A DNA stretch of 64,000 nucleotides, from assembly GCA_963931925.1 (NCBI GenBank), contig OZ007582.1, positions 21,634,224-21,698,223 on the forward strand. The letters run 5' to 3'. The stretch's first letter is position 1. Each line of letters begins with the position of its first letter. Source of the DNA: Onchidella celtica (taxonomy: Eukaryota > Mollusca > Gastropoda > Systellommatophora > Onchidiidae). The position numbers and the translations under genes are program-made. The notes under the pieces were generated by a model. The model saw nothing but the letters and a program-made list of their open reading frames with translations, was not told the origin of the DNA and did no database searches. Of this stretch, positions 16,727-44,324 are shown one piece after another.

Positions 16727-19700
16727 TGTCTGTCTGTCTGTCTGTCTGTCTGCCCCCAACCCCCACCCCCCTACATTTCCCCCATTAACATTCTTTGACA
16801 ATGAATGAATGGCAATTGCAACTTTCATCCAGTATTTATCACATTTGGATAATTCGTGTTTTTCAGGTGATTTTTAGACATTCAAATAAATTTAGTACCA
16901 GTGAATTGACTTTTTTTTTTTTTTAAATTCTTTCAGATACTTCTAAATACGAGGACATAATTATTTCGATGAAAACATTGATGATCATGACGGTACAACA
17001 TTCTGTCGTTGATACTAAGCTTAGAACAGCACTATTATTTACAATGATACATGTATTAAAGATACTGGAGAAGAAATAATTTTCTACCTACCTGTTTCCC
17101 AACGTCTTGCTTCACCTTTTTGTAACGACCAGATTCGGTGTTATTTAAGAACTCCAAGTCAAGCTGCACGAAGTTAAAGGTAATCTCTATATGGAAAGTA
17201 AGCCTCGCACCTGCTGAAAAAAAGGTTGAAACTTTAAAGAACAATGGGTTTTACTACACTGACAGGGTAATATATTTTCAGACTAAACATAGGTTTTCAT
17301 TTGCACTGAAACGGAAACGGCAAGGAAAACGCCAAAAAAACTTCAAGTAATGAAAGAGATAGAATGCTTTCATGCCGTCTCCGTATGGAAACTACTATTT
17401 GATAGATTTTTGACAGTTTTCTTCTTTTTTTTTAAAAATAATGGTTGATCTTTCAGGTGTTATTTTACCGGAGGTTAGGGATTTTGCTTCATCGCCAGAT
17501 GTGTCCGAGACTGATGGTTCATCGTCACATGTATTAGTGGCAAGGGTTGTTGTTTCATCTGTTGATGTATCTGTGGAAAGCATTGTTGTTTCATCTGTAG
17601 ATGTATCGGAGGCCAGAGGTTTTATTTCATCTGTAGATGTATCGGAGGCCAGAGTTTTTGTTTCATCTGTAGATGTATCGGAGGCCAGAGTTTTTGTTTC
17701 ATCTGTAGATGTATCGGAGGCCAGAGTTGTTGTTTCATCTGTAGATGTATCGGTGTCCAGAGTTCTTATGTCATCCGTAGATACATATATGGAAGGCATT
17801 GTTGTTTCATCTACAGATGTATCTATAGCCACAGTTGTCCTTTGTTTTGTAAATGAACCTGCCTCAACTGATGTTCGTACATCTGTAGATGTATCAAATG
17901 GAAGGGTAGTTGTTTCATATTTAAACGTATATTTGGCCAGGGTTGTTGTGTCCTCTGTTGATGAATATGTGTCAATGGTTTCTCTATCTCCCGTAAATGT
18001 ATCTGTGGCCAGGGTTGTTGTGTCGACTGTTGATGAATCTGTGACCATGATTTCTCTGTCACATGGATATTTAACTGTGGCAAGGGTTCTTGTTTCATCT
18101 GTAGATGTATCTGTCTCCACTGCTGTTGTTTCATCTGCAGACGTATCAATGGCCATAGTTATTGTTTCATCTGTAGATGTATTGATGGAAAGGGTTCTAG
18201 TTTCATCTGTAGATCGATCTGTGGCCAGTGTTATTGTTTCACCTGTAGATGTATCTGTGGAGAGAGTTTTTATTTCAACTGTAGATGTATCTGTGGCCAA
18301 AGCTCTTGTTTCATCTGAATATATTTCTGTGGAAAGCGTTTTTGTTTTATCTGTAGATGAATCTGTTTCCAGCGTTATTGTTTCATCTGTAGGCCTAGAT
18401 TTATCTGTGGCCTGAATTGTTGTTTCATCTGTAGATGTATCTGTGGCCAGAGTTGTTGTTTCATCTGTAGATGTATCGGTGTCCAGAGTTCTTATGTCAT
18501 CCGTAGATGCATATATGCAAGGCATTGTTGTTTCATCTGTAGATCGATCTGTGGCCAGTGTTATTGTTTCATCTGTAGATGTATCTGTGGAGAGAGTTTT
18601 TATTTCAACTGTAGATGTATCTGTGGCCAAAGTTCTTGTTTCATCTGAATATATATCTGTGGAAAGCGTTTTTGTTTTATCTGTAGATGAATCTGTTTCC
18701 AGCGTTATTGTTTCATCTGTAGGCCTAGATTTATCTGTGGCCTGAATTGTTGTTTCATCTGTAGATGTATCTGTGGCCAGAGTTGTTGTGTCATCAGTAG
18801 ATGTATCTCTGGGCAGAATTGTTGTTTCATCTCTAAATGTATCTCTGACTAGAGTTGTTGTGTCTTCCCTAGATATATCTGTGGCCATGATTGTTGTGCC
18901 ATCTGTAGATGTATCTGTGTCCAGACTTGTTATGTCACCAGTAGATGTATCTGTGGCCAGAGTTGTTGTGTCATCCATAGATGTATCTGTGGCTTGAGGT
19001 GTTGTGACACCAGTAGATGTATCTGTGGCCAGGACTGTTGTGTCATCCGTAGATGTATCTGTCGTCAGAATTGTAGTGTCATCCGGAGATGTATCTAGCG
19101 TTATTGTTTCATCTGTAGGCCTAGATTTATCTGTGGCCTGAATTGTTGTTTCATCTGTAGATGTATCTGTGGCCAGAGTTGTTGTTTCATCTATAGATGT
19201 ATCGGTGTCCAGAGTTCTTATGTCATCCGTAGATGCATATATGCAAGGCATTGTTGTTTCATCTGTAGATCGATCTGTGGCCAGTGTTATTGTTTCATCT
19301 GTAGATGTATCTGTGGAGAGAGTTTTTATTTCAACTGTAGATGTATCTGTGGCCAAAGTTCTTGTTTCATCTGAATATATATCTGTGGAAAGCGTTTTTG
19401 TTTTATCTGTAGATGAATCTGTTTCCAGCGTTATTGTTTCATCTGTAGGCCTAGATTTATCTGTGGCCTGAATTGTTGTTTCATCTGTAGATGTATCTGT
19501 GGCCAGACTTGTTGTGTCATCAGTAGATGTATCTCTGGGCAGAATTGTTGTTTCATCTCTAAATGTATCTCTGACTAGAGTTGTTGTGTCTTCCCTAGAT
19601 ATATCTGTGGCCATGATTGTTGTGCCATCTGTAGATGTATCTGTGTCCAGACTTGTTATGTCACCAGTAGATGTATCTGTGGCCAGAGTTGTTGTGTCAT

Positions 19701-22700: not shown

Positions 22701-25700
22701 CTGTGGCTAAAATTTTTGTATCATCCGTAGATGAATCTGTCGCCAGAGTTGTTGTGTCATCCGGAGATGTATATGTGGCCAGATTTATTTTCTCATGCGT
22801 CGATGTATCTGTGGCCGTGGTTGTTGCGTCATACGTAGATGTATCTTTGGCCAGACTTGTCGTTTCATCTGTAGGTGTATCTCTGGGAAGAACTGTTGTT
22901 TCATCTTTATATGTATCTTTGCTCATGGTTGTCCTTTCTTTTGTAGATATATCTGTGGATGGGGTGTCATCATCGATAAATGTATGTGTGGCCAAAGTTG
23001 TTGTGTCATCCGTAGATGTATTTTTAGCCAGACTTGTAGTTTCATCTGTAGATGTGTCTGTGGCAAAAATTGTTGTTTTATCTATCAATTTATCTCTGGC
23101 TAGAGTTGTTGTGTCATCCGTTGATGAAACTGTCGCAAAATTTGCTGTGTCATCCGTAGATGTGTAGGAGGCCAAAGTTGTTGTGTCGTCCGTAGATGTA
23201 TCTTTGACGAGAGTTGTTGTGTCATCCGTAGATGTATCTTTGACGAGAGTTGTTGTGTCATCCGTAGATGTATCGGAGGCCAGAGTTACTGCATCGTCCG
23301 TAGATGTATCTTTGACGAGAGTTGTTGTGTCGTCCGTAGATGTATCTTTGACGAGAGTTGTTGTGTCATCCGTAGATGTATCTTTGACGAGAGTTGTTGT
23401 GTCGTCCGTAGATGTAGCTTTGACGAGAGTTGTTGTGTCGTCCGTAGATGTATCTTTGACAAGAGTTGTTGTGTCGTCCGTAGATGTATCTTTGACGAGA
23501 GTTCTTGTGTCATCCGTAGATGTATCTGTCGCCAGAGTTGTTGTTTCATCTGTAGATGTATATGTGACTAAAGTTGTTGTGTCATCCGTAGAGGCCAGAG
23601 TTGTTGTGTCATCCGTTGATGTATCTTTGACGAGAGTTGTTGTGTCATCTGTAGATGTATCTGTGGCCAGAGTTGTTGTGCCATCAGTAGATGTATTTGT
23701 GGCCAGAGTTCTTGTTTCGTCTGTAGATGTTTCTGTGGGTAGAGTTGTTTTGTCATCCGTAGATGTATCTGTCGCCAGAGTTGTGTCATCCGTAGATTTA
23801 TCTGTGGCCAGACTTGTTGTGTCACCAGTAGATGTATCTGTGGCCATGATTTTTGAGTCATCCGTAGATGTATCTGTGGCCAGGATTGTTGTGCCATCCG
23901 TAGATGTATCTGTGGCAATGGTGGTTTTTTCATTTCTTGACCTATCTGTTGCCGGGGTTGTTGTTTCATCTGTAGATGTGCCAGAGGCAGTGGTTGTTGT
24001 TTCATCTGTATATGCACCTAGCAAAAGCTTTGTTGTTTCATCTTGAAAAGTATCAGTGATCATGGTTGTCCTTTCCATTGTAGATATATCTGTGGAGGGG
24101 GTATCATCATCCGTAGATGTATAAGTCGTCAGAGTTGTTGTTTCAAACGCAGAGGTATCTTTGACTAGAGTTAATGTGTCATCCGTAGATTTATCTGTGG
24201 CCAGAGTTAATGTTTCATCTGTAGATGTATGTGTGGCCAGAGTTGTTGTGTCATCCGTAGATTTATATCTGGCTAGAGTCGTTGTGTCATCCGTAGATTT
24301 ATCTGTGGCCAGAGCTTTTGTGCCATCGGTAGATTTATCTGTAGCCAGAGTTCTTGTTTCATCTGTAGATGTTTCTGTGGGTAGAGTTGTTTTGTCATCC
24401 TTAGACTTATTTGTGGCCAGACTTGTTGTGTCACGTGTATATATATCTGTGGCCAGTATTGTTGTGTCATCTGTAGATGTATCTGTGGCCAGAGTTCTTG
24501 TGTCATCTGTAGATGTATCTGTGGCCAGGATTGTTGTGTCGTCCATAGATGTATCTGTCGTCAGAGTTGTCGTGCCATCCGTAGATGTATATGTGACCAG
24601 ACTTGTCGTGTCACCAGTAGATGTATCTGTGGCCATGATTGTTGTTTCATCTGTAGATGTATCTGTGGCCAGGAGTGTTGTGTCATCCGTAGATGTATCT
24701 GTGGCCAGAGTTTTTGTGCCATCCGTAGATAAATATGTAGTCATGTTGGTTTTTTCATCTGTTGCCGGGGTTGTTGTTTCATCTGTAGACGTGCCTGTGG
24801 CAATGGTTGTTGTTTCATCTGTAGATGCACCTAGCAAAATCTTTGTTGTTTCATCTTTAAATGTATCTGTGCTCGTGGTTGTTTTTTCTTTTGTAGATAT
24901 ATCTGTGGAGGGGGTGTCATCATCCGTAGGTGTATGTGTGGAGGGGGTGTCATCATCCGTAGGTGTATGTGTGGAGGGGGTGTCATCATCCGTAGGTGTA
25001 TGTGTGGAGGGGTTGTCATCATCCGTAGGTGTATGTGTGGAGGGGGTGTCATCATCCGTAGGTGTATGTGTGGAGGGGGTGTCATCATCCGTAGGTGTAT
25101 GTGTGGAGGGGGTGTCATCATCCGTAGGTGTATGTGTGGAGGGGGTGTCATCATCCGTAGGTGTATGTGTGGAGGGGGTGTCATCATCCGTAGGTGTATG
25201 TGTGGAGGGGGTGTCATCATCCGAAGGTGTATGTGTGGAGGGGGTGTCATCATCCGTAGGTGTATGTGTGGAGGGGGTGTCATCATCCGTAGGTGTATGT
25301 GTGGAGGGGGTGTCATCATCCGTAGGTGTATGTGTGGAGGGGGTGTCATCATCCGTAGGTGTATGTGTGGAGGGGGTGTCATCATCCGTAGGTGTATGTG
25401 TGGAGGAGGTGTCATCATCCGTAGGTGTATGTGTGGAGGGGGTGTCATCATCCGTAGGTGTATGTGTGGAGGGGGTGTCATCATCCGTAGGTGTATGTGT
25501 GGAGGGGGTGTCATCATCCGTAGGTGTATGTGTGGAGGGGGTGTCATCATCCGTAGGTGTATGTGTGGAGGGGGTGTCATCATCCGTAGGTGTATGTGTG
25601 GAGGGGGTGTCATCATCCGTAGGTGTATGTGTGGAGGGGGTGTCATCATCCGTAGGTGTATGTGTGGAGGGGGTGTCATCATCCGTAGGTGTATCTGTGG

Positions 25701-28700
25701 AGGGGGTGTCATCATCCGTAGGTGTATGTGTGGAGGGGGTGTCATCATCCGTAGATGTATCTGTGGCCAGATTTGTTGTGCCATCCGTAGATGTATATTT
25801 GGCTAGAGTTTTTGTGTTATCCGTAGATTTATCTGTGGCTATAGTAGTTTTGCCACCAGTAGATCTATATGTGGCCAGGATTGTTGTGTCACCAGTAGAT
25901 TTACTTGTTGCCAGGGTTGTTCTGTCATCCGTAGATGTATCTGTGGCCAGATTTGTTGTGGCATCCGTAGATGTATATTTGGCTAGAGTTTTTGTCTCAT
26001 CCGTAGATTTATCTGTGGCTATAGTAGTTTTGCCACCAGTAGATCTATATGTGGCCAGGATTGTTGTGTCACCACTAGATTTACTTGTTGCCAGGGTTGT
26101 TCTGTCATCCGTAGATGTATCTGTGGCCAGATTTGTTGTGGCATCCGTAGATGTATATTTGGCTAGAGTTTTTGTCTCATCCGTAGATTTATCTGTGGCT
26201 ATAGTAGTTTTGCCACCAGTAGATCTATATGTGGCCAGGATTGTTGTGTCACCAGTAGATTTACTTGTTGCCAGGGTTGTTCTGTCATCCGTTGATGTAT
26301 CTGTGGCCAGAGTTGTTCTGTCATCCGTAGATGTATCTGTGGCCATGGTTTTTGTATCATCCGTAGGTGTATCTGTGGACATGACGGTTTTTTCAACTCT
26401 TGACCTATCCGTTGCCGGGGCTGTTGTTTCATCTGTAGATGTGTCTGTGGCAATGGTTATTGTTTTATCTGTAGATGCATCTTTAGATGTATCTGTACTC
26501 ATGGTTGTCCTTTCTTTTGTAGATATATCTGTGGAGGGGCTTATTCTTTCATCATCTATAGATATATGTGTGGCCAGAGTTCTTGTTTCAAATGTAGAGG
26601 TATCTGTGGCCGGAGTTGTTGTGTCATAGGTGGATGTATCTTTAGCGAGAATTGTTGTGTCATCCCTAGATATTTCTGTGGCCGGACTTGTTGTGCCATT
26701 CGCATTTGTATTTGTTGCCAGTGTTGTTGTTTCATCCGTAGATGTAGCTGTGGCTAGAGTTTTTGTTTCATATTGAGATGTATCTGTGGCTAGAGTTGCT
26801 AAGTCTACCGTAGATGTTTCTGTGGCCAGAGTTGTGTCATTTGTAGGTGTATCGGTGGCCAGGGTCGTTGTGTCATCCGTAGATATATCTGTGGAGAGAG
26901 TTGTTATTTCATTTGCAGATGTATCTGTGGCCATGGTTGTTTCGCTCTCCATAGATGTAGCTTTGGCCAGACTTGCTGTTTCATCTGTAGATGTATCTCT
27001 GGCTAGAGTTGCTGTGCCATCGGTAGATGTGTACTTTACGAGAATTTTTATGTCGTCCGTAGATGTATCTGTGGGCAGAGTTGTTGGGCCATCCGTAGAT
27101 GTAATTGTGGCAAGAGTTGTTGTGTCATCGGTAAATGTATCTTTGACCAGAGTTGTTGTGTGATCCGTAGGTGTATCTTTCGCCAGGGTTGTTGTGTCAT
27201 CCTTAAATGTATCTGTGGCCAGGGTTGTTGTTTCATCCGTTGATGTCACTGTTTCCAGATTTGTTGTTTCATCCGTAGATGTATCTGTGGTCAGAGTTGT
27301 TGTTTCATTTGTAGATGTATCGGTGGCCAGGGTCGTTGTGTCATCCGTAGATGTATCTGTGGCCAAAGTTGTTATTTCATTCGTATGTGTATCTGTGGCC
27401 ATAGTTGTTGCGTTCTCCGTAGATGTAGCTTTGGCCAGAACTGTTGTTTCATCTGTAGATGTATCTCTGGCCAGAATTCTTGTTTCATCCGTAGATGTAT
27501 CTTTGGCAAGAGTGGTTGTGCCATCTGTAAATGTTTTTGTGGCTAGAGTTGTTGTGTCATCTTTAGATGTATCTGTGGCCACACTTTTTGTTTCAATTGT
27601 AGATGTATCTGTGGCCAGAATTGTTGTGTCATCTGTAGATGTATCTGTTTCCAGACTTGTTGTGTCACCAGTAGATGTATCTGTGGATAGAGTTGCTGTG
27701 TCGACCGTAGATTTTTCTGTGGTCAGAGTTGTTGTGTCATCCGTAGATGTTTTTGTGCCCAGAGTTCTTGTTTCATCTGTAGATGTTTCTGTGGCTAGAG
27801 TTGTTGTCTCATCCGTAGATTTATCTGTGGCCAGAGTTGTTGTGTCGTCTGGAGATGTATCTGTGTGAAGACTAGTTTTTTCACCCGTAGATGTATCTGT
27901 GGCCATGATTGTTGTGTCATCCGTTGATGTATCTGTGGCCAGAGTTGTTGTGTCATCTGTAGATGTATCTGTGGCCAGAATTCTTGTGTCATCCGTTGAT
28001 GTATCTGTGGCCATGATTGTTGTTTCATCCGTTGATGTATCTGTGGCCAGAGTTCTTGTGTCATCTGTAGATGTATCTGTGGCCAGAGTTCTTGTGTCAT
28101 ACGTAGATATATCTGTGGCCAGAGTTGTTGTCTCAACTGCAGATGTATATTTGGCCAGAGTTCTTGTGCCATCCGTTGATGTATCTGTGGCCAGAGTGGT
28201 TGTGTCATCTGTAGATGTATCTGTGGCCAGGCTTGTTGTGTCATCTGTAGATTTATCTGTGGCCAGGCTTTTTGTGTCATCTGTAGATGTATCTGTGGCC
28301 AGAGTTGTTGTGTCATCTGTAGATGTATCTGTTGCCAGAGTTGTTATGTCATCTGTAGATGTATCCGTGGCCAGAGTTGTTGTGTCATCTGTAGATGTAT
28401 CTGTGGCCAGAGCTGTTGTGTCATCTGTAGATGTATCTGTGGCCATGCTTGTTGTGTCATCTGTAGATGTATTTGTGGCCAGAGTTGTTGTGTCATCTGT
28501 AGATGTATCCTTGGCCAGAGTTGTTGTGTCATTTGTAGATGTATCTGTGGACAGTCTTGTTGTGTCATCTGTAGATGTATCTGTGGCCAGAGTTTTTGTG
28601 TCATCTGTAGATGTATCTGTGGCCAGAGTTGTTGTGTCATCTGTTGATGTATCTGTGGCCAGAGTTGTTGTGTCATCTGTAGATGTATCTGTGGCCAGAG

Positions 28701-31700: not shown

Positions 31701-34700
31701 CATCTGTAGATGTTTCTATGGCTAAACTTGTTGTGTCATCCCTAGGTGAATGTGTCGCCAGAATTGTTGTGTCATCCCTAGATTTATCTGTGGCCAGAGT
31801 TATTGTGTTATCCGTAGATGTATCTGTGGCCAGAGTGGTTGTGTCATCCGTAGATGTATCTTTGCCCAGAGTTCTTGTGTCATCCGTAGATGTATCTGTG
31901 GCCAGAGTTGTTGTGTCATCCGTAGATGTATCTGTGACCAGTGTTGTTATGTCATCCGTAGATGTATCTGTGACCAGTGTTGTTATGTCATCCGTAGATG
32001 TATCTGTGGCCAGAGTTGTTATGTCATCCGTAGATGTATCTGTGGCCAGAGTTGTTGTGTCATCCGTAGATGTATTTGCTGCCAGAGTTATTGTGACATC
32101 CGTAGATGTATCTGTGGCTAGAGTTGTTGTGTCATCCGAAAATGTATCTCTGATCAGACTTGTTGTGTCATCTGTAGATTTATCTGTGGCCAAATTTGAT
32201 GTGTCATCCGTTGATGTATCTGTGGCCAGAGTTGATGTGTCATCAGCAGATGTATCAATGGCCATGGTGGTTTTTTCTTCTCTTGACTTATCCGTTGTCG
32301 GAGTTGTTGTTTCATCTGTAGGTGTGTAAGTGACAATGGTTATTGTTTCATCTGTAGATGCATCTAGCAAAAGCGTTGTTGTTTCATCTTTAACTGTATC
32401 TGTGCTCAGGCTGGTCCTTTCTTTTATTGGTATATCTGTGGAAATGGTTGTTCTGTCGTCATCCGTAGATTTATCGGTGGCCATGGTTGTTGTTTTATCT
32501 GAAAATGTATCTTTGTCCAGGCTTGTGATTTCATCTGTATTTGTATCTGTGACCAGGATTGTTGTTTGTATTGTAGCTGTATCCGTGTCTACTGCTGTTG
32601 GTTCGTCTGCGTGTGTATCTGTGGCCACAGTGGTTGTGTCATCCGTAGATGTAGCTGTGGCCAGAATTTTTGTTTGTAGTGTAGCTGTATCCGTGTCTAC
32701 TGCTGTTGGTTCGTCTGCATGTGTATCTGAGGCCACAGTGGTTGTGTCATCTGTAGATGTATCTGTGGCCAGAATTGTTGTTTGTAGTGTAGCTGTATCC
32801 GTGTCTACTGCTGTTGGTTCGTCTGCGTGTGTATCTGTGGCCACAGTGGTTGTGTCATCCGTAGATGTAGCTGTGGCCAGAATTGTTGTTTGTAGTGTAG
32901 CTGTATCCGTGTCTACTACTGTTGGTCCGTCTGCATGTGTATCTGTGGCCACAGTGGTTGTGTCATCTGTAGATGTATCTGTGGCCAGAATTGTTGTTTG
33001 TAGTGTAGCTGTATCCGTGTCTACTGCTGTTGGTTCGCCTGCATGTGTATCTGTGGCCATAGTGGTTGTGTCATCCGTAGATGTAGCTGTGGCCAGAATT
33101 GTTGTTTGTAGTGTAGCTGTATCCGTGTCTACTGCTGTTGGTTCGTCTGCATGTGTATCTGTGGCCATAGTGGTTGTGTCATCCGTAGATGTAGCTGTGG
33201 CCAAAATTGTTGTTTGTAGTGTAGCTGTATCCGTGTCTACTGCTGTTGGTTCGTCTGCATGTGTATCTGTGGCCATAGTGGTTGTGTCATCCGTAGAAGT
33301 AGCTGTGGCCAGAATTGTTTTGCCATCCGTAGATATATCTGTGACCATGGTTGTTTTATCATCCGTAGATGTATCTGTGGCCAGAGATCTTGTGCCGTCC
33401 GTAGTTGTATCTTTGGCCAGAGTTGGTATATCATTCATAGGTATATCTGTAGCCAGAATTGTTGTGTCATCGGTATATGTATTCGCTGCCTGAGTTGTTG
33501 TGTCATCCGTAGATGTGTCTGTGGCCAGGGTATATTTTTCATCTCTGCACCTATCAATTGCCGGGGTTGTTGTTACATCTGTAGATGTTTCAGTGGCCAT
33601 GGTTGTTGCTCTGTCGTCATCCGTAGATGTATCTGTGGTCAGCGTTCTTCTGTCATTCGTAGATGTATCTGTGGCCAAAGTTGTTCTGTCTTCCGTAGAT
33701 GTATCTGTGGCTACAGTTGTTGTGTCATCCGTAGATGTATCTGTGGCCAGAGTTGTTGTGTCATCCGTTGATGTATCTGTGACCAGTGTTGTTATGTCAT
33801 CCGTAGATGTATCTGTGACCAGAGTTGTTATGTCATCCGTAGATGTAACTTGGGCCAGAGTTGTTGTGTCATCCGTAAATGTATCTATGGCCAGAGTTGT
33901 TGTGTCATCCGTAGATGTATTTGCTGCCAGAGTTATTGTGACATCCGTAGATGTATCTGTGGCTAGAGTTGTTGTGTCATCCGAAAATGTATCTCTGATC
34001 AGACTTGTTGTGTCATCTGTAGATTTATCTGTGGCCAAATTTGATGTGTCATCCGTTGATGTATCTGTGGCCAGAGTTGATGTGTCATCAGCAGATGTAT
34101 CAATGGCCATGGTGGTTTTTTCTTCTCTTGACTTAACCGTTGTCGGAGTTGTTGTTTCATCTGTAGGTGTGTAATTTACAATGGTTATTGTTTCATCTGT
34201 AGATGCATCTAGCAAAAGCGTTGTTGTTTCATCTTTAACTGTATCTGTACTCAGGCTGGTCCTTTCTTTTATTGATATATCTGTGGAAATGGTTGTTCTG
34301 TCGTCATCCGTAGATTTATCGGTGGCCATGGTTGTTGTTTTATCTGAAAATGTATCTTTGTCCAGGCTTGTGATTTCATCTGTATTTGTATCTGTGACCA
34401 GGATTGTTGTTTGTATTGTAGCTGTATCCGTGTCTACTGCTGTTGGTTCGTCTGCATGTGTATCTGTGGCCACAGTGGTTGTGTCATCCGTAGATGTATC
34501 TGTGGCCATAATTGTTGTTTGTAGTGTAGCTGTATCCGTGTCTACTGCTGTTGGTTCGTCTGCGTGTGTATCTGTGGCCACAGTGGTTGTGTCATCCGTA
34601 GATGTAGCTGTTGCCAGAATTTTTGTTTGTAGTGTAGCTGTATCCGTGTCTACTGCTGTTGGTTCGTCTGCATGTGTATCTGAGGCCACAGTGGTTGTGT

Positions 34701-37700
34701 CATCTGTAGATGTATCTGTGGCCAGAATTGTTGTTTGTAGTGTAGCTGTATCCGTGTCTACTGCTGTTGGTTCGTCTGCGTGTGTATCTGTGGCCACAGT
34801 GGTTGTGTCATCCGTAGATGTAGCTGTGGCCAGAATTGTTGTTTGTAGTGTAGCTGTATCCGTGTCTACTATTGTTGGTCCGTCTGCATGTGTATCTGTG
34901 GCCACAGTGGTTGTGTCATCTATACATGTATCTGTGGCCAGAATTGTTGTTTCTAGTGTAGCTGTATCCGTGTCTACTGCTGTTGGTTCGTCTGCGTGTG
35001 TATCTGTGGCCACAGTGGTTGTGTCATCCGTAGATGTAGCTGTGGCCAGAATTGTTGTTTGTAGTGTAGCTGTATCCGTGTCTACTGCTGTTGGTTCGTC
35101 TGCATGTGTATCTGTGGCCACAGTGGTTGTGTCATCTGTAGATGTATCTGTGGCCAGAATTGTTGTTTGTACTGTCGCTGTATCCGTGTCTACTGCTGTT
35201 GGTTCGTCTGCATGTGTATCTGTGGCCACAGTGGTTGTGTCATCTGTAGATGTATCTGTGGCCAGAATTGTTGTTTGTACTGTCGCTGTATCCGTGTCTA
35301 CTGCTGTTGGTTCGTCTGCGTGTGTATCTGTGGCCACAGTGGTTGTGTCATCCGTAGATGTAGCTGTGGCCAGAATTGTTGTTTGTAGTGTAGCTGTATC
35401 CGTGTCTACTACTGTTGGTCCGTCTGCATGTGTATCTGTGGCCACAGTGGTTGTGTCATCCGTAGATGTATCTGTGGCCAGAATTGTTGTTTGTAGTGTA
35501 GCTGTATCCGTGTCTACTGCTGTTGGTTCGTCTGCATGTGTATCTGTGGCCATAGTGGTTGTGTCATCCTTAGAAGTAGCTGTGGCCAGAATTGTTGTGC
35601 CATCCGTAGATATATCTGTGGCCATGGTTTTTTTATCATCCGTAGTTGTATCTTTGGCCAGAGTTGGTATATCATTCATAGGTATATCTGTAGCCAGAGT
35701 TGTTGTGTCATCGGTAGATGTATTCGCTGCCAGAGTTGTTGTGTCATCCGTAGATGTGTCTGTTGCCAGGGTATATTTTTCATCTCTGCACCTATCAATT
35801 GTCGGGGTTGTTGTTACATCTGTAGATGTTTCAGTGGCCATGGTTGTTGCTCTGTCGTCATCCATAGATGTATCTGTGGTCAGCGTTCTTCTGTCATTCG
35901 TAGATGTATCTGTGGCCAAAGTTGTTCTGTCGTCCGTAGATGTATCTGTGGCTACAGTTGTTGTGTCATCCGTAGATGTATCTGTGGCCAGAGTTGTTGT
36001 GTCATCCGTAGATGTATCTGTGACCAGTGTTGTTATGTCATCCGTAGATGTATCTGTGACCAGAGTTGTTATGTCATCCGTAGAGGTATCTGTGGCCAGA
36101 GTTGTTGTGTCATCCGTAAATGTATCTATGGCCAGAGTTGTTGTGTCATCCGTAGATGTATTTGCTGCCAGAGTTATTGTGACATCCGTAGATTTATCTG
36201 TGGCTAGAGTTGTTGTGTCATCCGAAAATGTATCTCTGATCAGACTTGTTGTGTCATCTGTAGATTTATCTGTGGCCAAATTTGATGTGTCATCCGTTGA
36301 TGTATCTGTGGCCAGAGTTGATGTGTCATCAGCAGATGTATCAATGGCCATGGTGGTTTTTTCTTCTCTTGACTTATCCGTTGTCGGAGTTGTTGTTTCA
36401 TCTGTAGGTGTGTAAGTGACAATGGTTATTGTTTCATCTGTAGATGCATCTAGCAAAAGCGTTGTTGTTTCATCTTTAACTGTATCTGTGCTCAGGCTGG
36501 TCCTTTCTTTTATTGGTATATCTGTGGAAATGGTTGTTCTGTCGTCATCCGTAGATTTATCGGTCGCCATGGTTGTTGTTTTATCTGAAAATGTATCTTT
36601 GTCCAGGCTTGTGATTTCATCTGTATTTGTATCTGTGACCAGGATTGTTGTTTGTATTGTAGCTGTATCCGTGTCTACTGCTGTTGGTTCGTCTGCGTGT
36701 GTATCTGTGGGAACAGTGGTTGTCTCATCCGTAGATGTAGCTGTGGCCAGAATTTTTGTTTGTAGTGTAGCTGTATCCGTGTCTACTGCTGTTGGTTCGT
36801 CTGCATGTGTATCTGAGGCCACAGTGGTTGTGTCATCCGTAGATGTATCTGTGGCCAGAATTGTTGTTTGTAGTGTAGCTGTATCCGTGTCTACTGCTGT
36901 TGGTTCGTCTGCGTGTGTATCTGTGGCCACAGTGGTTGTGTCATCCGTAGATGTAGCTGTGGCCAGAATTGTTGTTTGTAGTGTAGCTGTATCCGTGTCT
37001 ACTACTGTTGGTCCGTCTGCATGTGTATCTGTGGCCATAGTGGTTGTGTCATCCGTAGATGTATCTGTGGCCAGAATTGTTGTTTGTAGTGTAGCTGTAT
37101 CCGTGTCTACTGCTGTTGGTTCGCCTGCATGTGTATCTGTGGCCACAGTGGTTGTGTCATCCGTAGATGTAGCTGTGGCCAGAATTGTTGTTTGTAGTGT
37201 AGCTGTATCCGTGTCTACTGCTGTTGGTTCGTCTGCATGTGTATCTGTGGCCATAGTGGTTGTGTCATCCGTAGAAGTAGCTGTGGCCAGAATTGTTTTG
37301 CCATCCGTAGATATATCTGTGACCATGGTTGTTTTATCATCCGTAGATATATCTGTGGCCAGAGATCTTGTGCCGTCCGTAGTTGTATCTTTGGCCAGAG
37401 TTGGTATATCATTCATAGGTATATCTGTAGCCAGAATTGTTGTGTCATCGGTATATGTATTCGCTGCCTGAGTTGTTGTGTCATCCGTAGATGTGTCTGT
37501 GGCCAGGGTATATTTATCATCTCTGCACCTATCAATTGCCGAGGTTGTTGTTACATCTGTAGATGTTTCAGTGGCCATGGTTGTTGCTCTGTCGTCATCC
37601 GTAGATGTATCTGTGGTCAGCGTTCTTCTGTCATTCGTAGACGTATCTGTGGCCAAAGTTGTTCTGTCTTCCGTAGATGTATCTGTGGCCAGAATTGTTG

Positions 37701-40700
37701 TTTGTAGTGTAGCTGTATCCGTGTCTACTGCTGTTGGTTCGTCTGCGTGTGTATCTGTGGCCACAGTGGTTGTGTCATCCGTAGATGTAGCTGTGGCCAG
37801 AATTGTTGTTTGTAGTGTAGCTGTATCCGTGTCTACTACTGTTGGTCCGTCTGCATGTGTATCTGTGGCCACAGTGGTTGTGTCATCTGTAGATGTATCT
37901 GTGGCCAGAATTGTTGTTTGTACTGTAGCTGTATCCGTGTCTACTGCTGTTGGTTCGCCTGCATGTGTATCTGTGGCCATAGTGGTTGTGTCATCCGTAG
38001 ATGTAGCTGTGGCCAGAATTGTTGTTTGTAGTGTAGCTGTATCCGTGTTTACTGCTGTTGGTTCGTCTGCATGTGTATCTGTGGCCATAGTGGTTGTGTC
38101 ATCCGTAGATGTAGCTGTGGCCAAAATTGTTGTTTGTAGTGTAGCTGTATCCGTGTTTACTGCTGTTGGTTCGTCTGCATGTGTATCTGTGGCCATAGTG
38201 GTTGTGTCATCCGTAGAAGTAGCTGTGGCCAGAATTGTTTTGCCATCCGTAGATATATCTGTGACCATGGTTGTTTTATCATCCGTAGATGTATCTGTGG
38301 CCAGAGATCTTGTGCCGTCCGTAGTTGTATCTTTGGCCAGAGTTGGTATATCATTCATAGGTATATCTGTAGCCAGAATTGTTGTGTCATCGGTATATGT
38401 ATTCGCTGCCTGAGTTGTTGTGTCATCCGTAGATGTGTCTGTGGCCAGGGTATATTTTTCATCTCTGCACCTATCAATTGCCGGGGTTGTTGTTACATCT
38501 GTAGATGTTTCAGTGGCCATGGTTGTTGCTCTGTCGTCATCCGTAGATGTATCTGTGGTCAGCGTTCTTCTGTCATTCGTAGATGTATCTGTGGCCAAAG
38601 TTGTTCTGTCTTCCGTAGATGTATCTGTGGCTACAGTTTTTGTGTCATCCGTAGATGTATCTGTGGCCAGAGTTGTTGTGTCATCCGTAGATGTATCTGT
38701 GACCACTGTTGTTATGTCCTCCGTAGATGTATCTGTGACCAGAGTTGTTATGTCATCCGTAGATGTAACTGTGGCCAGAGTTGTTGTGTCATCCGTAAAT
38801 GTATCTATGGCCAGAGTTGTTGTGTCATCCGTAGATGTATTTGCTGCCAGAGTTATTGTGACATCTGTAGATGTATCTGTGACCAGGATTGTTGTTTGTA
38901 TTGTAGCTGTATCCGTGTCTAGTGCTGTTGGTTCGTCTGCATGTGTATCTGTGGCCACAGTGGTTGTGTCAACGGTAGATGTATCTGTGGCCAGAATTGT
39001 TGTTTGTAGTGTAGCTGTATCCGTGTCTACTGCTGTTGGTTCGTCTGCGTGTGTATCTGTGGCCACAGTGGTTGTGTCATCCGTAGATGTAGCTGTGGCC
39101 AGAATTGTTGTTTGTAGTGTAGCTGTATCCGTGTCTACTGCTGTTGGTTCGTCTGCATGTGTATCTGTGGCCACAGTGGTTGTGTCATCTGTAGATGTAT
39201 CTGTGGCCAGAATTGTTATTTGTAGTGTAGCTGTATCCGTGTCTACTGCTGTTGGTTCGTCTGCATGTGTATCTGTGGCCATAGTGGTTGTGTCGTCCGT
39301 AGATGTAGCTGTGGCCAGAATTGTTGTTTGTAGTGTAGCTGTATCCGTGTCTACTGCTGTTGGTTCGTCTGCATGTGTATCTGTGGCCATAGTGGTTGTG
39401 TCATCCGTAGATGTAGCTGTGGCCAGAATTGTTGTGCCATCCGTAGATATTTCTGTGGACATGGTTGTTTTGTCATCCGTATATGTATCTGTGGCCAGAG
39501 ATGTTGTCTCATCCGTAATTGTATCTGTGGCCAGAATTGGTGTATCATTCATAGGTATATCTGTAGCCAGAGTTGTTGTGCCATCCGTAGATATTTCTGT
39601 GGCCATGGTTGTTTTGTCATCCGTATATGTATCTGTGGCCAGAGATGTTGTGTCATCCGTAATTGTATCTGTGGCCAGAATTGGTGTATCATTCGTAGGT
39701 ATATCTGTAGCCAGAGTTGTTGTGTCATCGGTAGATGTATTTGCTGCCAGAGTCGTTGTGTCATCCGTAGATGTTTCTCTGGCCAGGGTAGTGGTTTCAT
39801 CTCTGCAAATATCAATTGCCGGGGTTGTTGTTATATCTGTAGATGTTTCAGTGACCATGGTTGTTGCTCTGTCGTCATCCGTAGATGTATTTGTGGTCAG
39901 CGTTGTTCTGTCATTCGTAGATGTATCTGTGGTCAGCGTTGTTCTGTCATTCGTAGATGTATCTGTGGTCAGCGTTGTTCTGTCATTCGTAGATGTATCT
40001 GTGGCGTGAGTTTCTGTGCCATCCAAAGATGTATCTATGGCCAGAGTTCTTGTGTCGTCCGTAGATGTATCTGTGGCCAGAGTTTTTGTGTCAGTCGTAG
40101 ATGTATCTGTGACCAGAGTTCTTTTGTCATCCGTAGAAGTATCTGTTGTCAGAGTTGTTGTGCCATCCATAGAGGTGTCTGTGGTCAGAGGTGTTGTGTC
40201 TTCCGTAGATGTATCTGTGGCCAGCATTGTTGTGTCATCCGTAGATGTGTCTATGGCCAGGGTGGTTTTTTCATCTCTGCACCTATCAATTGCCGGGGTT
40301 TTTGTTTCGTCTGTAGATGTTTCAGTGGCCATGGTTGTTGTTTCATCTGCAGCTGCAGCTATGGAAAGCTTTGTTGTTTCAACTTTAAATGTATCTGTGC
40401 TCGGGGTTGTCCTTTCTTTTGTAGATATATCTGTAGCCAGGGTTGTTCTGCCGTCATCCGTAGATGTATCTGTGGTCAGAGTTTTTGTTTCAGTTGTAGA
40501 TGTATCCATGGAAAGGGTTGTTTTTTCATCTGTAGATGTATCTGTGGCCAGAGCTGTTATTTCATTTGTAGATGTGTCGGTTTCTCGCGTTGTTTTTTCA
40601 TCTTTAGATGTATCGGTGGCCATGGTTGTTGTTTTATCTGTAAATGTATCTGTGACCGAGCTTGTGGTTTCAACCCTCAATGTATCTGTGGCCAAGATTG

Positions 40701-43700
40701 TTGTTTTAACTCTCGATGTATCTTTGACCAGAGTAGTTGTGTCACCTGTAGATTTATCTGTGGCCAAGATTGTTGTTTTAACTCTCGATGTATCTGTGGC
40801 TAGGGTTGTTCTGTCATTAGTTGACGTAACTGTGTCGAGGGGTGTCGTTTTATCTGTGGTTATATCTATGGCCAGGGTTAATTTTTCATCTGTTGATCTG
40901 TCCGTTGGCGGGGTTGTTGTTTCATATGTTTCAGTGGCCAGAGCTGTTGTTTCATCTGTAGATGTGTCGGTTTCTCTTGTTGTTTTTTCATCTTTAGATG
41001 TATCGGTGGCCAAGGTTGTTATTTTATTTGGAAATGTATCTGTGACCAGGCTTGTGGTTTCATCTGCAGATGTATCTGTGACCAGAATTGTTGTTTGTAT
41101 TGTAACTGTGTCCGTGTCTACTGTTGTTGGTTCGTCTGCAGACAAATCTGTATCCATGGTTGTTATGTCATCTGTAAATTTACCTGTGTCCAGTGCTGTT
41201 GGTTGATCTGCAGATGTATCTGTTGCCACAGTTATTGATTCACATCTATATATATCTGTGGCTATGGTTATTTTTTCATCTGTAGATGTATCTGTTTCCA
41301 TACTGGTTGTTTCATCTGTAGGTGTATCGGTGGCTATTGTAGTTGTTTCATCTTTGGATGCTTCTGTGGCTATATTTGTTTTTTCATAATTAGATATATC
41401 TGTGGCCAGGGTTGATGTTTCATCTGTAGATCTGTCTGCGGAAAGGGTTGTTGTTTCATCTTTAAAAGTATCTGTGGTCATTGGGTTTTTTTCCTCTGTA
41501 GATTTATCTGTTACTATGGTTGTTGTGTCATGATCTGTAGAAGTATCAGTTGCCAGATTTGTTGTGGGATCAGTAAATGTGTCTGTTGAAACCGTTGTTG
41601 TGTCATCCGTTGGTGTTTTTGTGGCCAGTGTTTTTGTATCATCCGTAGATGTATCTGTGAAAAGGGTTGTTGTATCATAATTAGATGTATCTGTAACCAG
41701 TGTTGTTGTTTCATCTGTAGATGTATCTGTTTCCATGGTTGTTGTTTTATCGGTAAATGTATCCGTGGCCAAGCTTGTGATTTTGTCTGTAGATGTATCT
41801 GTGGTGAGGGTTGTTCTGTCATTTGTTGATGTATCTGTTGCCAGGGTTATTGTGTCATCTGTAGCAACATCTGTGGCCCTGGGCGTTGTTTCACTTGCAG
41901 ATGTATCTGTAGCCATGGTTGTGATTAGTTTTGGAGATGTATCTGCCTCCACGTCTGTTTGAATATCTGCAGATGTATCAATTGGAAGGGTAGTTGTTTC
42001 ACATTTAGACCTATATTTTGCCAGGGCTTTTGTGTCGTCTGTTGATGAATATGTGGCCATTGTTGTTCTGTCATCCGGAGATGCCAGTGTTGGTTTTTCA
42101 TTTGTAGACTTATCTGTTTCCATGGTTGTTTTTTTTTCTGTAGAGGCATCTGTGACCAGGATTCTTCTTTCAATTCTAGATGTATCTGTGGCCAAGGTTG
42201 TTCTGTCATTAATTGGTGTATCTCTGACCAGCGTTGTTGTTTCATTTGTAGATGTATCCGTGTCTGCTGATGTTGGTTCATTTGTAGATGTATCTGTTTC
42301 TTCATTTTCATCTGCACATTTATCTCTGTCTTCAATTGATACTTCATCAATGGATGTATCTGAATCCACACTTGTTGTTTCATCTTCAGATGTGTATGTG
42401 TCCATAATGGTTGACGTGTCGTCTGTGGATACATCTGAGCCCAAGGTTGGTATTTCAACTGTAGATCTATCTTTGGCCGGGTTTGTTTCATCTGTAGATG
42501 TGTCGGTGGTCAGGTTTGTTCTTTCATTAATAGGGTTATCTGTGTCCAGAGTTGATTCTTCATCAGTTGTTGAAGATCTTTCGTAAACCGATGTATCTTT
42601 TTCTTCAGTGGATGTTTCATTTGCAATTGTATCTGTGTCTTCAATTGATACTTCATCATTGGATTCATCTGATTTCATAGTTGCTGTATCATCTGCAGAT
42701 GTAGCTTCGTCCTCACTGGATGTTTCATCTATAAATGTATCTGTGGCCTCAGTTGACCCTTCATCAATGGTTGTATCTGAATCCACACTTGTTGTTTCAT
42801 CTTCAGATGTGTATGTGTCCATAATGGTTGATGTGTCGTCTGTGGATACATCTGAGCCCAAGGTTGGTATTTCAACTGTAGATCTATCTTTGGCCGGGTT
42901 TGTTTCATCTGTAGATGTGTCGGTGGTCAGGTTTGTTCTTTCATTAATAGGGTTATCTGTGTCCAGAGTTGATTCTTCATCAGTTGTTGAAGATCTTTCG
43001 TAAACCGATGTATCTTTTTCTTCAGTGGATGTTTCATTTGCAATTGTATCTGTGTCTTCAATTGATACTTCATCATTGGATTCATCTGATTTCATAGTTG
43101 CTGTATCATCTGCAGATGTAGCTTCGTCCTCACTGGATGTTTCATCTATAAATGTATCTGTGGCCTCAGTTGACCCTTCATCAATGGTTGTATCTGAATC
43201 CACACTTGTTGTTTCATCTTCAGATGTGTATGTGTCCATAATGGTTGATGTGTCGTCTGTGGATACATCTGAGCCCAAGGTTTGTATTTCAGTTGTAGAT
43301 CTATCTTTGGCCGGGTTTGTTTCATCTGTAGATGTGTCTGTGGCCAGAATAGCTGTTAGTTCGTCTGTAGATGTATCGGAGGCCGTGGTTGTTGTTTCAT
43401 CTGTAGATGTAACTGTAGCCAGGGGTGTTGTTTCCTCTGTTAATGTATCCCTTTCCATAATGGTTAAGGTGACATCTGTAGATGTGTCGGTGGTCAGGTT
43501 TGTTCTTTCATTGATAGGGTTATCTGTGTCCATAGTTGATTCTTCATCAGTTGTTGAAGATCTTTCGTAAACCGATGTATCTTTTTCTTCAGTGGATGTT
43601 TCATCTGCAATTGTATCTGTGTCTTCAATTGATACTTCATCATTGGATTCATCTGATTTCATAGTTGCTGCATCATCTGCAGGTGTATCTACGTCCTCAC

Positions 43701-44324
43701 TGGATGTTTCATCTATAAATATATCTGTGGCCTCAGTTGACCCTTCATCAATGGATGTATCTGAATCCACACTTGTTTCATCTTCAGATGTGTATGTGTC
43801 CATAATGGTTGATGTGTCGTCTGTGAATACATCTGAGCCCAAGGTTTTTTTTTCAATTGTAGATCTATCTTTGGCCGGGTTTGTTTCATCTGTAGATGTG
43901 TCTGTGGCCAGAATAGCTGTTAGTTCGTCTGTAGATGTATCGGAGGCCATGGTTGTTGTTTCATCTGTAGATGTAACTGTAGCCAGGGGTGTTGTTTCAT
44001 CTGTTAATGCATCCCTTTCCATGATGGTTAAGGTGACATCTGTAGATGTGTCGGTGGTCAGGTTTGTTCTTTCATTGATAGGGTTATCTGTGTCCATAGT
44101 TGATTCTTCATCAGTTGTTGAAGATCTTTCGTAAACCGATGTATCTTTTTCTTCAGTGGATGTTTCATCTGCAATTGTATCTGTGTCTTCAACTGATACT
44201 TCATCATTGGATTCATCTGATTTCATAGTTGCTGTATCATCTGCAGATGTATCTACGTCCTCACTGGATGTTTCATCTATAAATGTATCTGTGGCCTCAG
44301 TTGACCCTTCATCAATGGATGTAT
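7554..44324 (-). CDS. Giant SEA-domain transmembrane mucin-like gene (eight exons found, 5' end missing)
   Basis: Composite gene on the minus strand. Exons are 44324-17469, 17210-17092, 15123-15065, 12726-12563, 10940-10844, 10218-10202, 9605-9452 and 7914-7554. Every junction has AG/GT borders and every intron phase matches its neighbour (1, 0, 2, 1, 2, 1, 2). The spliced length is 27,827 nt. After the two bases of the first split codon it divides exactly into 9,275 codons including the stop. Predicted order: about 8,950 residues of Thr/Asp repeats, SEA domain, five-cysteine EGF-like segment, one transmembrane helix, basic stop-transfer residues and a Ser/Thr-rich cytoplasmic tail. This is the plan of large membrane mucins such as MUC16, so I infer a heavily O-glycosylated surface protein. 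The first exon enters in phase 1, so one or more upstream exons (signal peptide) are missing and were not recognised up to 64 kb. A possible AATAAA on the minus strand lies at 6944-6949. Orthology to any named mucin is not claimed. Confidence 0.8.
7915..9451 (-). other. Mucin intron, A-rich
   Basis: The intron between the transmembrane and tail exons. 8245-8580 is dominated by poly-A-like runs. Nothing else recognised. Confidence 0.5.
9424..9605 (-). CDS. Transmembrane exon with juxtamembrane basic segment
   Basis: The acceptor is atttctatgctgtag, entered in phase 1. The peptide begins (E)DNVKL, continues with a membrane helix of about 24 hydrophobic residues ([12 protein letters not shown] then [11 protein letters not shown]), and then KCGGRKRR as a stop-transfer signal. 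The orientation is type I (outside N-terminal). Two endings are possible. The frame reaches a stop at 9424 after about 27 tail residues. Alternatively a donor at 9452 (GGAAG|GTCAGG) leaves in phase 2 and joins the next exon, which has matching phase. The coding part is therefore 9605-9424 (short tail) or 9605-9452 (spliced). Confidence 0.85.
10103..10192. repeat. (AAT)n/(CAT)n microsatellite
   Basis: An AATAAT run, CATCATCATC, then AATAAT again, directly downstream (gene sense) of the 17-nt microexon donor. Confidence 0.95.
10202..10218 (-). CDS. 17-nt microexon closing the EGF-like segment
   Basis: A 17-nt exon between a strong acceptor (tttttcatcactgcag) and a perfect consensus donor (GTGAGT). 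It enters in phase 2 and leaves in phase 1. It encodes the end of a split Arg, then E-A-E-C-N and the first base of the next codon. Only this exon converts the phase-2 end of the EGF-like exon into the phase 1 needed by the transmembrane exon. Without it the frame would break. The small size makes it easy for gene finders to miss. Confidence 0.65.
10844..10940 (-). CDS. EGF-like cysteine-rich exon after SEA
   Basis: 97-nt exon. The acceptor is acttttatttcag and the donor GTGCAG|GTACTG. It enters in phase 1 and leaves in phase 2. The peptide starts [11 protein letters not shown], carries [13 protein letters not shown], and ends FPRC plus a split Arg codon. With the next microexon the segment has five cysteines in about 35 residues, between the SEA domain and the membrane helix. 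Membrane mucins commonly place EGF-like modules here. A sixth cysteine, expected in a complete EGF fold, is missing, so this is either a divergent EGF module or another small disulfide-bonded stalk. Confidence 0.75.
10941..12562 (-). other. Mucin intron
   Basis: AT-rich, with no further exon or element recognised. The short phrase 'atcccaa(g/c)' recurs several times between 12050 and 12420 (aaatcccaag, aaaatcccaa), suggesting a decayed local repeat. Confidence 0.5.
12563..12726 (-). CDS. SEA domain exon, C-terminal half with GSLIV motif
   Basis: 164-nt exon. The acceptor is catagtttcag and the donor ACCG|GTAAGC. It enters in phase 2 and leaves in phase 1. It begins (R)[13 protein letters not shown], continues through a helix-like stretch containing [10 protein letters not shown], and ends in a Thr/Asn-rich segment with a possible N-glycosylation site (N-A-T). 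Gly-Ser followed by aliphatic residues is the position at which SEA domains of MUC1 and related mucins undergo autoproteolysis (G|SVVV). The match suggests a non-covalent two-subunit surface protein, though cleavage itself cannot be seen from sequence. Confidence 0.8.
12853..14000 (+). mobile_element. Solo LTR, related family (1,148 bp), in a mucin intron
   Basis: Starts TGTCACGAGCAG, ends ATTTGTGACA, and is flanked by TTGAC (12848-12852 and 14001-14005). An AATAAA at 13894-13899, about 100 bp before the end, fits an LTR polyadenylation signal and sets the plus orientation. It lies in the intron just upstream of the GSLIV exon, antisense to the mucin gene. Confidence 0.8.
14006..15064 (-). 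other. Mucin intron remainder
   Basis: The part of the intron beyond the solo LTR. No recognisable element or exon. Confidence 0.5.
15065..15123 (-). CDS. SEA domain exon, central segment (59 nt)
   Basis: Short exon with a good pyrimidine-rich acceptor (ttccttattacttcag) and donor ATGAG|GTATGT. It enters in phase 0 and leaves in phase 2. Its 19 complete codons give [19 protein letters not shown], and the split codon makes Arg. This places a hydrophobic strand directly before the P-G-S-L-I-V of the next exon, as expected where a SEA domain reads '...v..frpGSvvv'. Another frame of the same bases is cysteine-rich but does not match the phases of the flanking exons. Confidence 0.75.
16208..16459. 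repeat. 35-bp minisatellite, seven copies
   Basis: Seven copies beginning TATAGAGTTCC at 16211, 16246, 16281, 16316, 16351, 16386 and 16421, each followed by ACGGTCATTTGGAGTATC. The period is exact and there are only a few substitutions. It is intronic within the mucin gene. Confidence 0.95.
16687..16756. repeat. (TG)n-(TCTG)n microsatellite
   Basis: A TG run followed by about eight TCTG units, in the intron between the first and second SEA exons. Confidence 0.95.
17092..17213 (-). CDS. SEA domain exon, N-terminal half
   Basis: Exon two of the recognised set. The acceptor is tandem (tttcagcag, NAGNAG), so it can start at 17213 or 17210, adding or dropping one Ala codon. The donor is AAACAG|GTAGGT. 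It enters in phase 1 and leaves in phase 0. The peptide contains [10 protein letters not shown], then [17 protein letters not shown]. That is the usual SEA pattern: a beta strand, then 'L.N..S..Y..(L/V)...V...(L/Q)'. SEA domains sit next to the membrane in mucins and adhesion proteins and often cleave themselves. The intron separating it from the giant exon is only about 255 bp. The exon identity rests on the motif pattern and on phase agreement with both neighbours. Confidence 0.8.
17469..44324 (-). CDS. 26.9-kb single exon encoding the Thr/Asp repeat domain
   Basis: This exon is 26,856 nt (8,952 codons) without a stop. The acceptor is at 44325 (tttctttctcag, pyrimidine-rich) and the donor after 17469 (CCG|GTAAAA). 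Both ends are phase 1, so the exon is symmetric. The basic unit is 12 residues, consensus [12 protein letters not shown], giving roughly 745 units. About half the residues are Thr or Ser and about a quarter are Asp or Glu. Proline and cysteine are rare, which differs from classical Pro-Thr-Ser mucins. Dense Thr suggests O-glycosylation, and the acidic residues following Ser/Thr also resemble casein-kinase-2 sites; both are inferences. The open frame continues to 44853, but that extension translates CA/GA/GATG microsatellite and is probably not coding. Past the donor the frame runs 24 more codons to a stop at 17395, which would be a retained-intron ending. Sense never stops over 8,952 codons while the antisense frame is cut many times, so the sense frame is under selection. 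Confidence 0.9.
18415..21055 (-). repeat. 726-bp higher-order repeat array
   Basis: Units start at 18415, 19141, 19867 and 20593 with an exact 726-bp period (242 codons, about twenty 12-residue units). The last copy is partial and changes after about 21055. The 19141 and 19867 copies look nearly identical by eye. The 18415 copy differs at a few sites. All stay in frame with the giant exon. Confidence 0.9.
24903..25758 (-). repeat. 33-bp minisatellite, about 26 copies, inside the exon
   Basis: Perfectly regular 33-bp period encoding the 11-residue unit [11 protein letters not shown] on the minus strand, about 26 copies. Only a handful of single-base variants are visible (for example at about 25014, 25223 and 25406). 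It breaks the 12-residue rhythm and is the only part of the domain rich in Pro and His. Confidence 0.95.
25753..26292 (-). repeat. 180-bp tandem triplet inside the exon
   Basis: Three copies starting at 25753, 25933 and 26113 (60 codons each). They encode a more basic, Lys/Tyr-containing variant of the 12-residue unit (for example [11 protein letters not shown]). They directly adjoin the 33-bp array. Confidence 0.9.
27880..29390 (-). repeat. Most regular 36-bp (12-residue) repeat field
   Basis: About 42 nearly uniform units of [12 protein letters not shown] with a strict 36-bp period. This stretch best shows the ancestral unit of the whole exon. Confidence 0.9.
31560..39420 (-). repeat. Nested higher-order duplications built on a 108-bp unit
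   Basis: A 36-residue triple unit ([36 protein letters not shown]) is repeated many times. Larger blocks are duplicated around it. For example, the segment at 32154-32336 recurs at 36240-36422 (4,086 bp apart) with a further copy 1,845 bp after the first, and segments at 37.5 and 38.4 kb are 942 bp apart. Confidence 0.85.
42300..44324 (-). repeat. N-terminal acidic modules, 417 and 567 bp
   Basis: Four module copies at spacings of 417, 567 and 564 bp (equivalent points at about 42608, 43025, 43592 and 44156). They are richer in Glu, Ser, Asn and Arg (for example [16 protein letters not shown]) than the rest of the domain. The 417-bp unit is a deleted form of the 567-bp one. Confidence 0.85.

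Follow-up and report, generated by a model that had tools for sequence, protein, structure and literature searches.

The 64,000-nucleotide window analysed here (contig OZ007582.1 of assembly GCA_963931925.1, positions 21,634,224 to 21,698,223 of the forward strand; all coordinates below are counted within this window) comes from the onchidiid gastropod Onchidella celtica. It is dominated by a giant open frame on the minus strand, which we read, together with a series of smaller exons downstream of it, as part of the gene of a giant membrane-anchored (tethered) mucin. The stop-to-stop frame runs from 44862 to 17398 and contains 9155 codons, with no N anywhere in the window; the next-longest stop-free run in any frame of the window has 880 codons. 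Within this frame lies a predicted coding exon of 26,856 bp (17469..44324, minus strand), which is entered and left in phase 1 and comprises 8,951 whole codons with a split codon at each end. Its 5' limit is the acceptor tttatttctttctcag (tttctcag/AT, phase 1), which with a score of 11.0 ranks second of the eight acceptors in the gene model, and its 3' limit is a phase-1 donor at 17468, CCG/GTAAAA. An earlier note on this DNA, made from the sequence alone, had proposed one giant open coding frame bounded by these two splice sites, both in phase 1, and our analysis confirms it.

The exon encodes a Thr/Asp-rich 12-residue repeat. Tandem Repeats Finder (TRF) reports a period of 36 across 17529-42554, and the autocorrelation of the translated protein peaks at lags 36, 12, 24 and 48. 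The consensus of the 36-bp, 12-residue unit is GAT ACA TCT ACA GAT GAC ACA ACA ACT CTG GCC ACA. A DNA model of this unit finds 674 matches above 12 bits within the exon; elsewhere it finds none on the plus strand and, on the minus strand, a single extra match that starts one base before the exon, its first G being the last base of the acceptor. The figure of about 745 12-mers given by the earlier note proves to be merely the exon length divided by 12: the repeat itself is borne out by TRF, autocorrelation and the unit hits, and 616 non-overlapping units are recognised in the protein, covering 7,392 of its 8,951 residues and diverging from the consensus by 16.9% on average. The array is a mosaic of blocks, some of which have a period other than 36 bp. 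From the N-terminal end of the exon, these include a block of 108-bp and 417-bp higher-order repeats (42277..44322, limits approximate); a large higher-order repeat block with lags of 1845, 2241, 4086, 4920 and 6114 bp and 89-94% identity (31741..39669, limits approximate); an extended stretch of 36-bp units close to the consensus (28150..29664); an array of 11-mers with two Pro in 11 residues (24893..25766; TRF period 66/99 with a 33-bp subunit, 98% matches); and a 726-bp (242-codon) higher-order repeat in nearly four copies, with 95.5% identity in the longest pair (18305..21097), all on the minus strand. For such higher-order repeats, the matches of the unit repeat overwhelmed self-blastn; in a self-match scan with a threshold of at least 85% identity over 300 bp, the lag is a multiple of 3 in each of the 1,574 segments, although many of these are redundant.

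The encoded chain is extreme in composition. Thr accounts for 35.6% of the residues, followed by Asp (17.4%), Ser (8.6%), Ala (7.5%), Leu (5.7%), Glu (4.5%) and Pro (2.3%), with 19 Cys and no Trp. Ser and Thr together make up 44.2% of the 8,951 residues and 32-55% of each of 178 sampled 100-residue windows, and Asp and Glu make up 22%. The product of the exon would have a mass of about 947 kDa without sugars, a pI of 4.05 and a net charge of about -1478 at pH 7. Two hallmarks of mucins are thus found here: a long Ser/Thr-rich tandem-repeat domain and, as judged from the open frame and the predicted splice sites, the confinement of that domain to one large exon. Searches of the two halves of the repeat against Pfam returned no family at E<=0.01, and the first 3,400 repeat residues, used as a protein query (528 candidates scored), matched nothing at E<=0.001.

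Several features of the array bear on whether its open frame is under selection. All 674 unit matches share one frame, and each of the 49 off-register spacings (those not divisible by 36) is divisible by 3. The 616 units hold no stop, where per-position base frequencies would predict 16.15. In the control frames of the same units, stops seen and expected are 225/248.8 and 607/610.0 for the other two sense offsets and 162/143.4, 669/670.6 and 31/51.4 for the three antisense frames; four of these lie within about 13% of expectation, one antisense frame is 40% short, and none comes near zero. Because of that one deficient control, the model behind the expectation is inexact. The P value is also inflated because the repeat copies are related, and the units were therefore thinned to 203, 123, 75 and 36 dissimilar ones, for which 9.65, 6.85, 4.84 and 3.0 stops are expected and none is observed in any set (P for zero stops from 6e-5 to 0.05, the last after the hardest thinning). 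These figures speak to the suggestion that there is no working gene here at all, just a recently expanded satellite-like array left open by chance through a stop-poor unit. Such an array would indeed profit from the consensus, no codon of which, as can be read off it, lies fewer than two changes from a stop. Of 80,559 single changes across the whole frame, just 1,389 create one; a lack of stops is also seen in the deficient antisense frame, and the window is rich in microsatellites and arrays. Yet it would hardly combine the observed mean divergence with a complete lack of stops, even after strong thinning, nor keep every off-register spacing in frame, nor be followed downstream by matching exons with homology to a membrane anchor, and we hold it to be very improbable.

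Selection on individual residues is a different matter. The comparison of nonsynonymous and synonymous changes (dN/dS, omega) across repeat copies that the earlier note had put forward as a check was run on seven higher-order repeat pairs (3,279 codon pairs, with 137 that carry two or more differences left out). Omega is 0.84 with uniform rates, 0.92 with kappa 2 (bootstrap 0.74-1.14), 1.00 with kappa 4, and 0.72 with the spectrum of fourfold sites (bootstrap 0.59-0.89), a spectrum that rests on 91 differences. It exceeds 1 in two of the seven pairs (2.03 and 4.4), on 5 and 1 synonymous changes. From this range of 0.72-1.00, which depends on the mutation model, it appears that selection chiefly preserves the open frame and the bulk composition and bears much less on residues. 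The inference of the earlier note that the sense frame is selected holds with respect to stops and frameshifts, and the residues themselves are weakly constrained.

The interior of the exon is also poor in potential splice sites, as scored with a simple home-made matrix. The consensus 36-mer contains no GT, the unit boundary included, and the exon as a whole has 353 GT on the sense strand versus 3,986 on the antisense strand. Sense donors of at least 7 bits number two versus 36 expected per equal length from the rest of the minus strand, and there is no sense acceptor of at least 7 bits versus 14 expected on the same basis. Relative to synonymous shuffles, the one clear deficit is that of GT as such (353 versus a mean of 412.8, SD 7.8; 0 of 100 shuffles as low); donors of at least 7 bits number 2 versus a shuffle mean of 5.6 (2 of 100 as low). 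This GT deficit is suggestive only, because shuffling disrupts the repeat context.

Downstream of the giant exon, seven further exons can be placed on the minus strand. All introns are of the GT-AG type and the phases chain unbroken as 1-1-0-2-1-2-1-2; the splice sites were picked by eye, and their consistency alone is no proof. A phase-1 acceptor 255 bp beyond the donor of the giant exon opens exon SEA1 (17092..17213; 122 bp, phase 1 to 0), which would encode the first part of a SEA-like module; the acceptor is a NAGNAG site, both choices of which are in frame. It is followed by SEA2 (15065..15123; 59 bp, phase 0 to 2) and SEA3 (12563..12726; 164 bp, phase 2 to 1), the predicted junction of which spells I-S-M-R-P-G-S-L-I-V. 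SEA autocleavage motifs are of the G-S-[VIL]-[VI]-V type, as in the FRPGSVVV of MUC1, and the R-P-G-S-L-I-V at the junction is a putative motif of this kind. The Cys-rich module that follows is encoded by exon Cys1 (10844..10940; 97 bp) and completed by a predicted 17-bp microexon (10202..10218) with the residues CREAECN. Next come an exon with the transmembrane (TM) helix, the stop-transfer sequence KCGGRKRR and the start of the tail (9452..9605), and a cytoplasmic-tail exon (7554..7914), read to the first stop and uncertain at its 3' limit. The helix has a mean Kyte-Doolittle value of 2.84 over a 19-residue window, and a single TM segment with a short tail is likewise what a tethered mucin would have. 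The intron between SEA1 and SEA2 harbours a 35-bp tandem repeat in 7 copies with 97% matches (16209-16458).

Independent evidence for this anchor comes from another gastropod. A protein search of a 5.8-billion-protein database with a 626-residue query turned up a single relative at E<=1, the hypothetical protein RRG08_065079 of Elysia crispata (E=9.1e-11; 1,753 candidates scored). A 355-residue C-terminal query (1,352 candidates) gave nothing at E<=0.001, missing the Elysia protein because its 913 residues exceed the length limit of that query. BLASTP aligns the spliced model with the Elysia protein from the late part of SEA2, that is, its 3' portion, through SEA3, the Cys module, TM helix and tail, with 64 of 222 columns identical, and tblastn of the Elysia protein on the window recovers the TM exon at E=5e-8. 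At 29-30% identity, the two proteins have in common a late SEA-like module with G-S-L-I, the four aligned Cys of the Cys-rich module, 15 consecutive identical residues in the TM exon, and the tail elements T-x-G-[ST]-W and Y-x-x-DA-x-S. At the equivalent place (residues 559-646), the Elysia protein also has a sub-threshold Pfam match to SEA (PF01390, E=0.004, 17.7 bits versus a cut-off of 26.4); its AlphaFold model, computed without an alignment, has a mean pLDDT of 35, too low to be informative. Judged at the level of sequence, this homology strongly supports the predicted TM exon and supports the predicted exons from SEA3 to the tail.

Taking these lines together, we put the probability that the giant exon supplies the repeat domain of a tethered mucin, encoded on the minus strand, at about 0.78. 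Several results weigh against this reading. The Pro/Thr/Ser-rich (PTS) domains of mucins usually carry Pro at about 5% or more, whereas here it amounts to 2.29% overall and reaches at least 5% in 9 of the 178 windows. Pfam, NCBIfam and PDB show no SEA or other credible match on the C-terminus (matches to Prominin, E=0.021, and PPP1R35_C, E=0.067, were judged to be due to chance), and a profile that we made from seven solved SEA sequences gives 3.6 bits, a score reached by 262 of 5000 shuffles. For these two reasons the module is called SEA-like, and its identity as a SEA domain is not established by sequence. Shuffles score as high against the Elysia protein in 99 of 2000 cases for the SEA region only, in 826 of 2000 for SEA1 plus SEA2, and in 412 of 2000 for SEA1 alone; as SEA1 shows no homology of its own, this exon and the splice that would join the giant exon to it are predicted from phase, site and position. 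The Elysia protein, a partial record, has tandem EGF/EGF_CA domains before its SEA instead of a Thr/Asp repeat; no EGF exons appear upstream in our window, where tblastn of the Elysia protein at E<=10 gives the TM exon only. A scan for a signal-peptide exon from 64000 to 44330 yielded no good candidate. With regard to splicing, donors of at least 5 bits are hardly depleted in the exon (16 versus 20.7 in shuffles, with 14 of 100 shuffles as low), neither AG nor acceptors are scarcer than in synonymous shuffles, and the antisense strand, despite its 3,986 GT, has only 6 donors of at least 7 bits; selection for splice silence is not demonstrated. Lastly, the donor at the end of the giant exon reaches a modest score of 5.3 bits and is surpassed by ten or more donors inside the exon (5.8-9.1 bits). 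The earlier note had called this donor usable, which is favoured by the phase-1 acceptor that follows it and disfavoured by its low score among stronger competitors.

That modest donor, together with the want of homology behind the SEA1 link, would fit a different reading, in which the giant exon ends the gene of a secreted, acidic, Thr-rich protein and the SEA and TM exons belong to a separate gene. A calcifying animal could plausibly secrete proteins of this acidic, Thr-rich kind, and beyond the donor the frame does stay open for another 23 codons, up to a stop at 17397-17395. However, those codons are K-rich and D-free, no AATAAA or ATTAAA occurs between 17400 and 16401, and the phase-matched acceptor 255 bp on opens a coherent set of anchor exons, which makes a secreted product quite unlikely. 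The internal donors raise a second question. The strongest of them, at 41183 (9.1 bits, CAG/GTAAAT) and 18242 (7.2 bits), are both in phase 1, and since they outscore the end donor, shorter isoforms that keep the anchor are possible. It is another step to suppose that such isoforms dominate, with donors such as that at 41183 joined to SEA1 and most of the 26.9 kb usually skipped, used occasionally or decaying. The weak residue constraint (omega 0.7-1.0) would fit this, but skipped DNA should gain stops and frameshifts, and none is present in the 23.7 kb beyond 41183; moreover, no donor in the last 770 bp of the exon outscores the one at its end. We accordingly see little chance that short forms prevail.

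If the tethered-mucin reading is correct, a chain of about 9,000 residues, Ser/Thr-rich, acidic and presumably unfolded, would project from the cell like a bristle. Its Thr and Ser residues would bear O-glycans, and Asp and Glu would give the bare protein about 1,500 net negative charges, so that the chain could be expected to be stiff, hydrated and cation-binding, with a surface role that may include barrier formation, lubrication or the binding of cations. The SEA-like module, if it adopts the fold, would cleave itself at G/S with the two halves held together non-covalently, and the bristle might therefore shear off without tearing the membrane. The Cys module, single TM helix and tail would constitute the anchor, through which signalling is possible. 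The repeat may have arisen by tandem and higher-order duplication and may persist through its robustness: as two or more changes separate each consensus codon from a stop and the 36-mer is devoid of GT, drift would rarely create a stop or a splice donor, and the scarcity of new donors should aid the splicing of a 26.9-kb exon as a single piece. More speculatively, one may picture a spiralian lineage of tethered glycoproteins with one conserved anchor, made up of the SEA-like and Cys modules, the helix and the tail with T-x-G-[ST]-W, in which the ectodomain has been swapped between EGF arrays and an independently evolved, giant polyanionic Thr/Asp brush; the brush exon would be kept whole by its splice-silent, stop-proof unit, with selection acting on length, charge and the absence of processing signals rather than on residues. 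We offer this wider scheme tentatively and think that it may well be wrong in part or whole.

Vertebrate SEA-type tethered mucins combine a giant repeat exon, a SEA domain with a cleavage motif, a TM segment and a short tail. MUC16 carries many SEA modules, whereas a single SEA-like module is found here. Searches with the region from SEA to TM (at E<=1) and with the SEA part only (at E<=10) against PDB chains, MUC16 and other SEA structures included, gave no match, and MUC16 orthology finds no backing in these searches. The likeness to MUC1, MUC3A, MUC12, MUC16 and MUC17 accordingly concerns layout and huge size (exon sizes as given in PMC13345508); no sequence homology to the vertebrate proteins was detected, and the repeat differs in being Asp-rich and Pro-poor. 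According to that source, a 2026 preprint, the predicted proteins of human MUC12 range from 4,677 to 23,080 residues, its central exon is in some humans the largest coding exon to the knowledge of the authors, and a human MUC4 variable number tandem repeat (VNTR) allele measures 27,843 bp. By these figures the Onchidella exon, at 26,856 bp, is among the largest coding exons reported, in the class of the MUC12 and MUC4 exons, and is not the record. The rank that the earlier note had assigned to it is upheld, and the MUC16 and titin exons that served as its yardsticks are out of date, as the MUC12 and MUC4 alleles in PMC13345508 are larger. The human VNTR exons resemble it as single tandem-repeat coding exons of comparable or greater length and differ in their longer maximum, human origin and high polymorphism.

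If transcribed as one piece, the exon would thus be one of the longest coding exons and an invertebrate test case for the recognition of exons beyond the usual range of exon definition. It points to an invertebrate tethered mucin with a MUC16-like layout but undetectable homology and with a repeat and an anchor of its own. In the open-licence PMC literature we found no report of a molluscan SEA-type transmembrane mucin, judged by titles and abstract openings among the matches listed, which is weak evidence of absence. A review describes animal mucins as largely uncharacterized (PMC8542881), and a mucomics study of Cornu aspersum mentions A-B-A mucins in aquatic snails and other molluscs, not previously in Cornu aspersum, and notes that repeats hinder detection (PMC10475054).

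The 5' end of the gene is less clear. Upstream of the giant exon lies a microsatellite block of (CT)n, (CCAT)n and (CTAT)n (44325..44840, minus strand) that ends in the acceptor tttctcag. Because repeat similarity begins at this high-scoring acceptor, the block is probably the 3' end of an intron. The microsatellite sequence (44325-44862) is nevertheless in frame with the giant exon, with about 180 codons free of stops and an ATG at 44841, and the protein could in principle start at that ATG, with the CT microsatellite as a hydrophobic leader and no acceptor at 44325. This would be compatible with a membrane mucin and would alter its 5' end only. In its favour, the frame is open from 44862, and a 16-residue stretch is the most hydropathic among the upstream starts that pass the donor filter of our scan; but the leader would be followed by considerably more than 100 residues of simple-sequence L/S and SIHP, and the onset of repeat similarity coincides with the second-ranked acceptor. 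We regard such a start as unlikely and retain the spliced 5' limit of the predicted mucin exon. Apart from this ATG, the best phase-1 signal-peptide candidate was an exon at 51879-51828; it was rejected, its donor lying inside a repeat (50753-51853) that has a copy at 4414-5515.

These two copies represent a 1.1-kb interspersed element in direct orientation, 98.5% identical, with an inner 21/43-bp tandem. Further interspersed repeat pairs are found at 45649-46164/48685-49203 and 47358-47759/57879-58281 (91-93% identical), and a shorter one at 48352-48505/63560-63713 (88% identical). Rfam, at its gathering threshold, and ARAGORN detected nothing in the window. A MULE transposase domain (PF10551, E=2.1e-7; 54842-55204, minus strand) within a minus-strand run of open reading frames at 54542-55458 marks a transposon upstream of the giant exon. 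Near the end of the window, at 62743-63471 on the plus strand, two open reading frames carry pieces of a rhodopsin-type G-protein-coupled receptor (7tm_1, E=0.0064 and 0.00013, both below the cut-off), which probably belong to a neighbouring gene on the strand opposite the giant exon.

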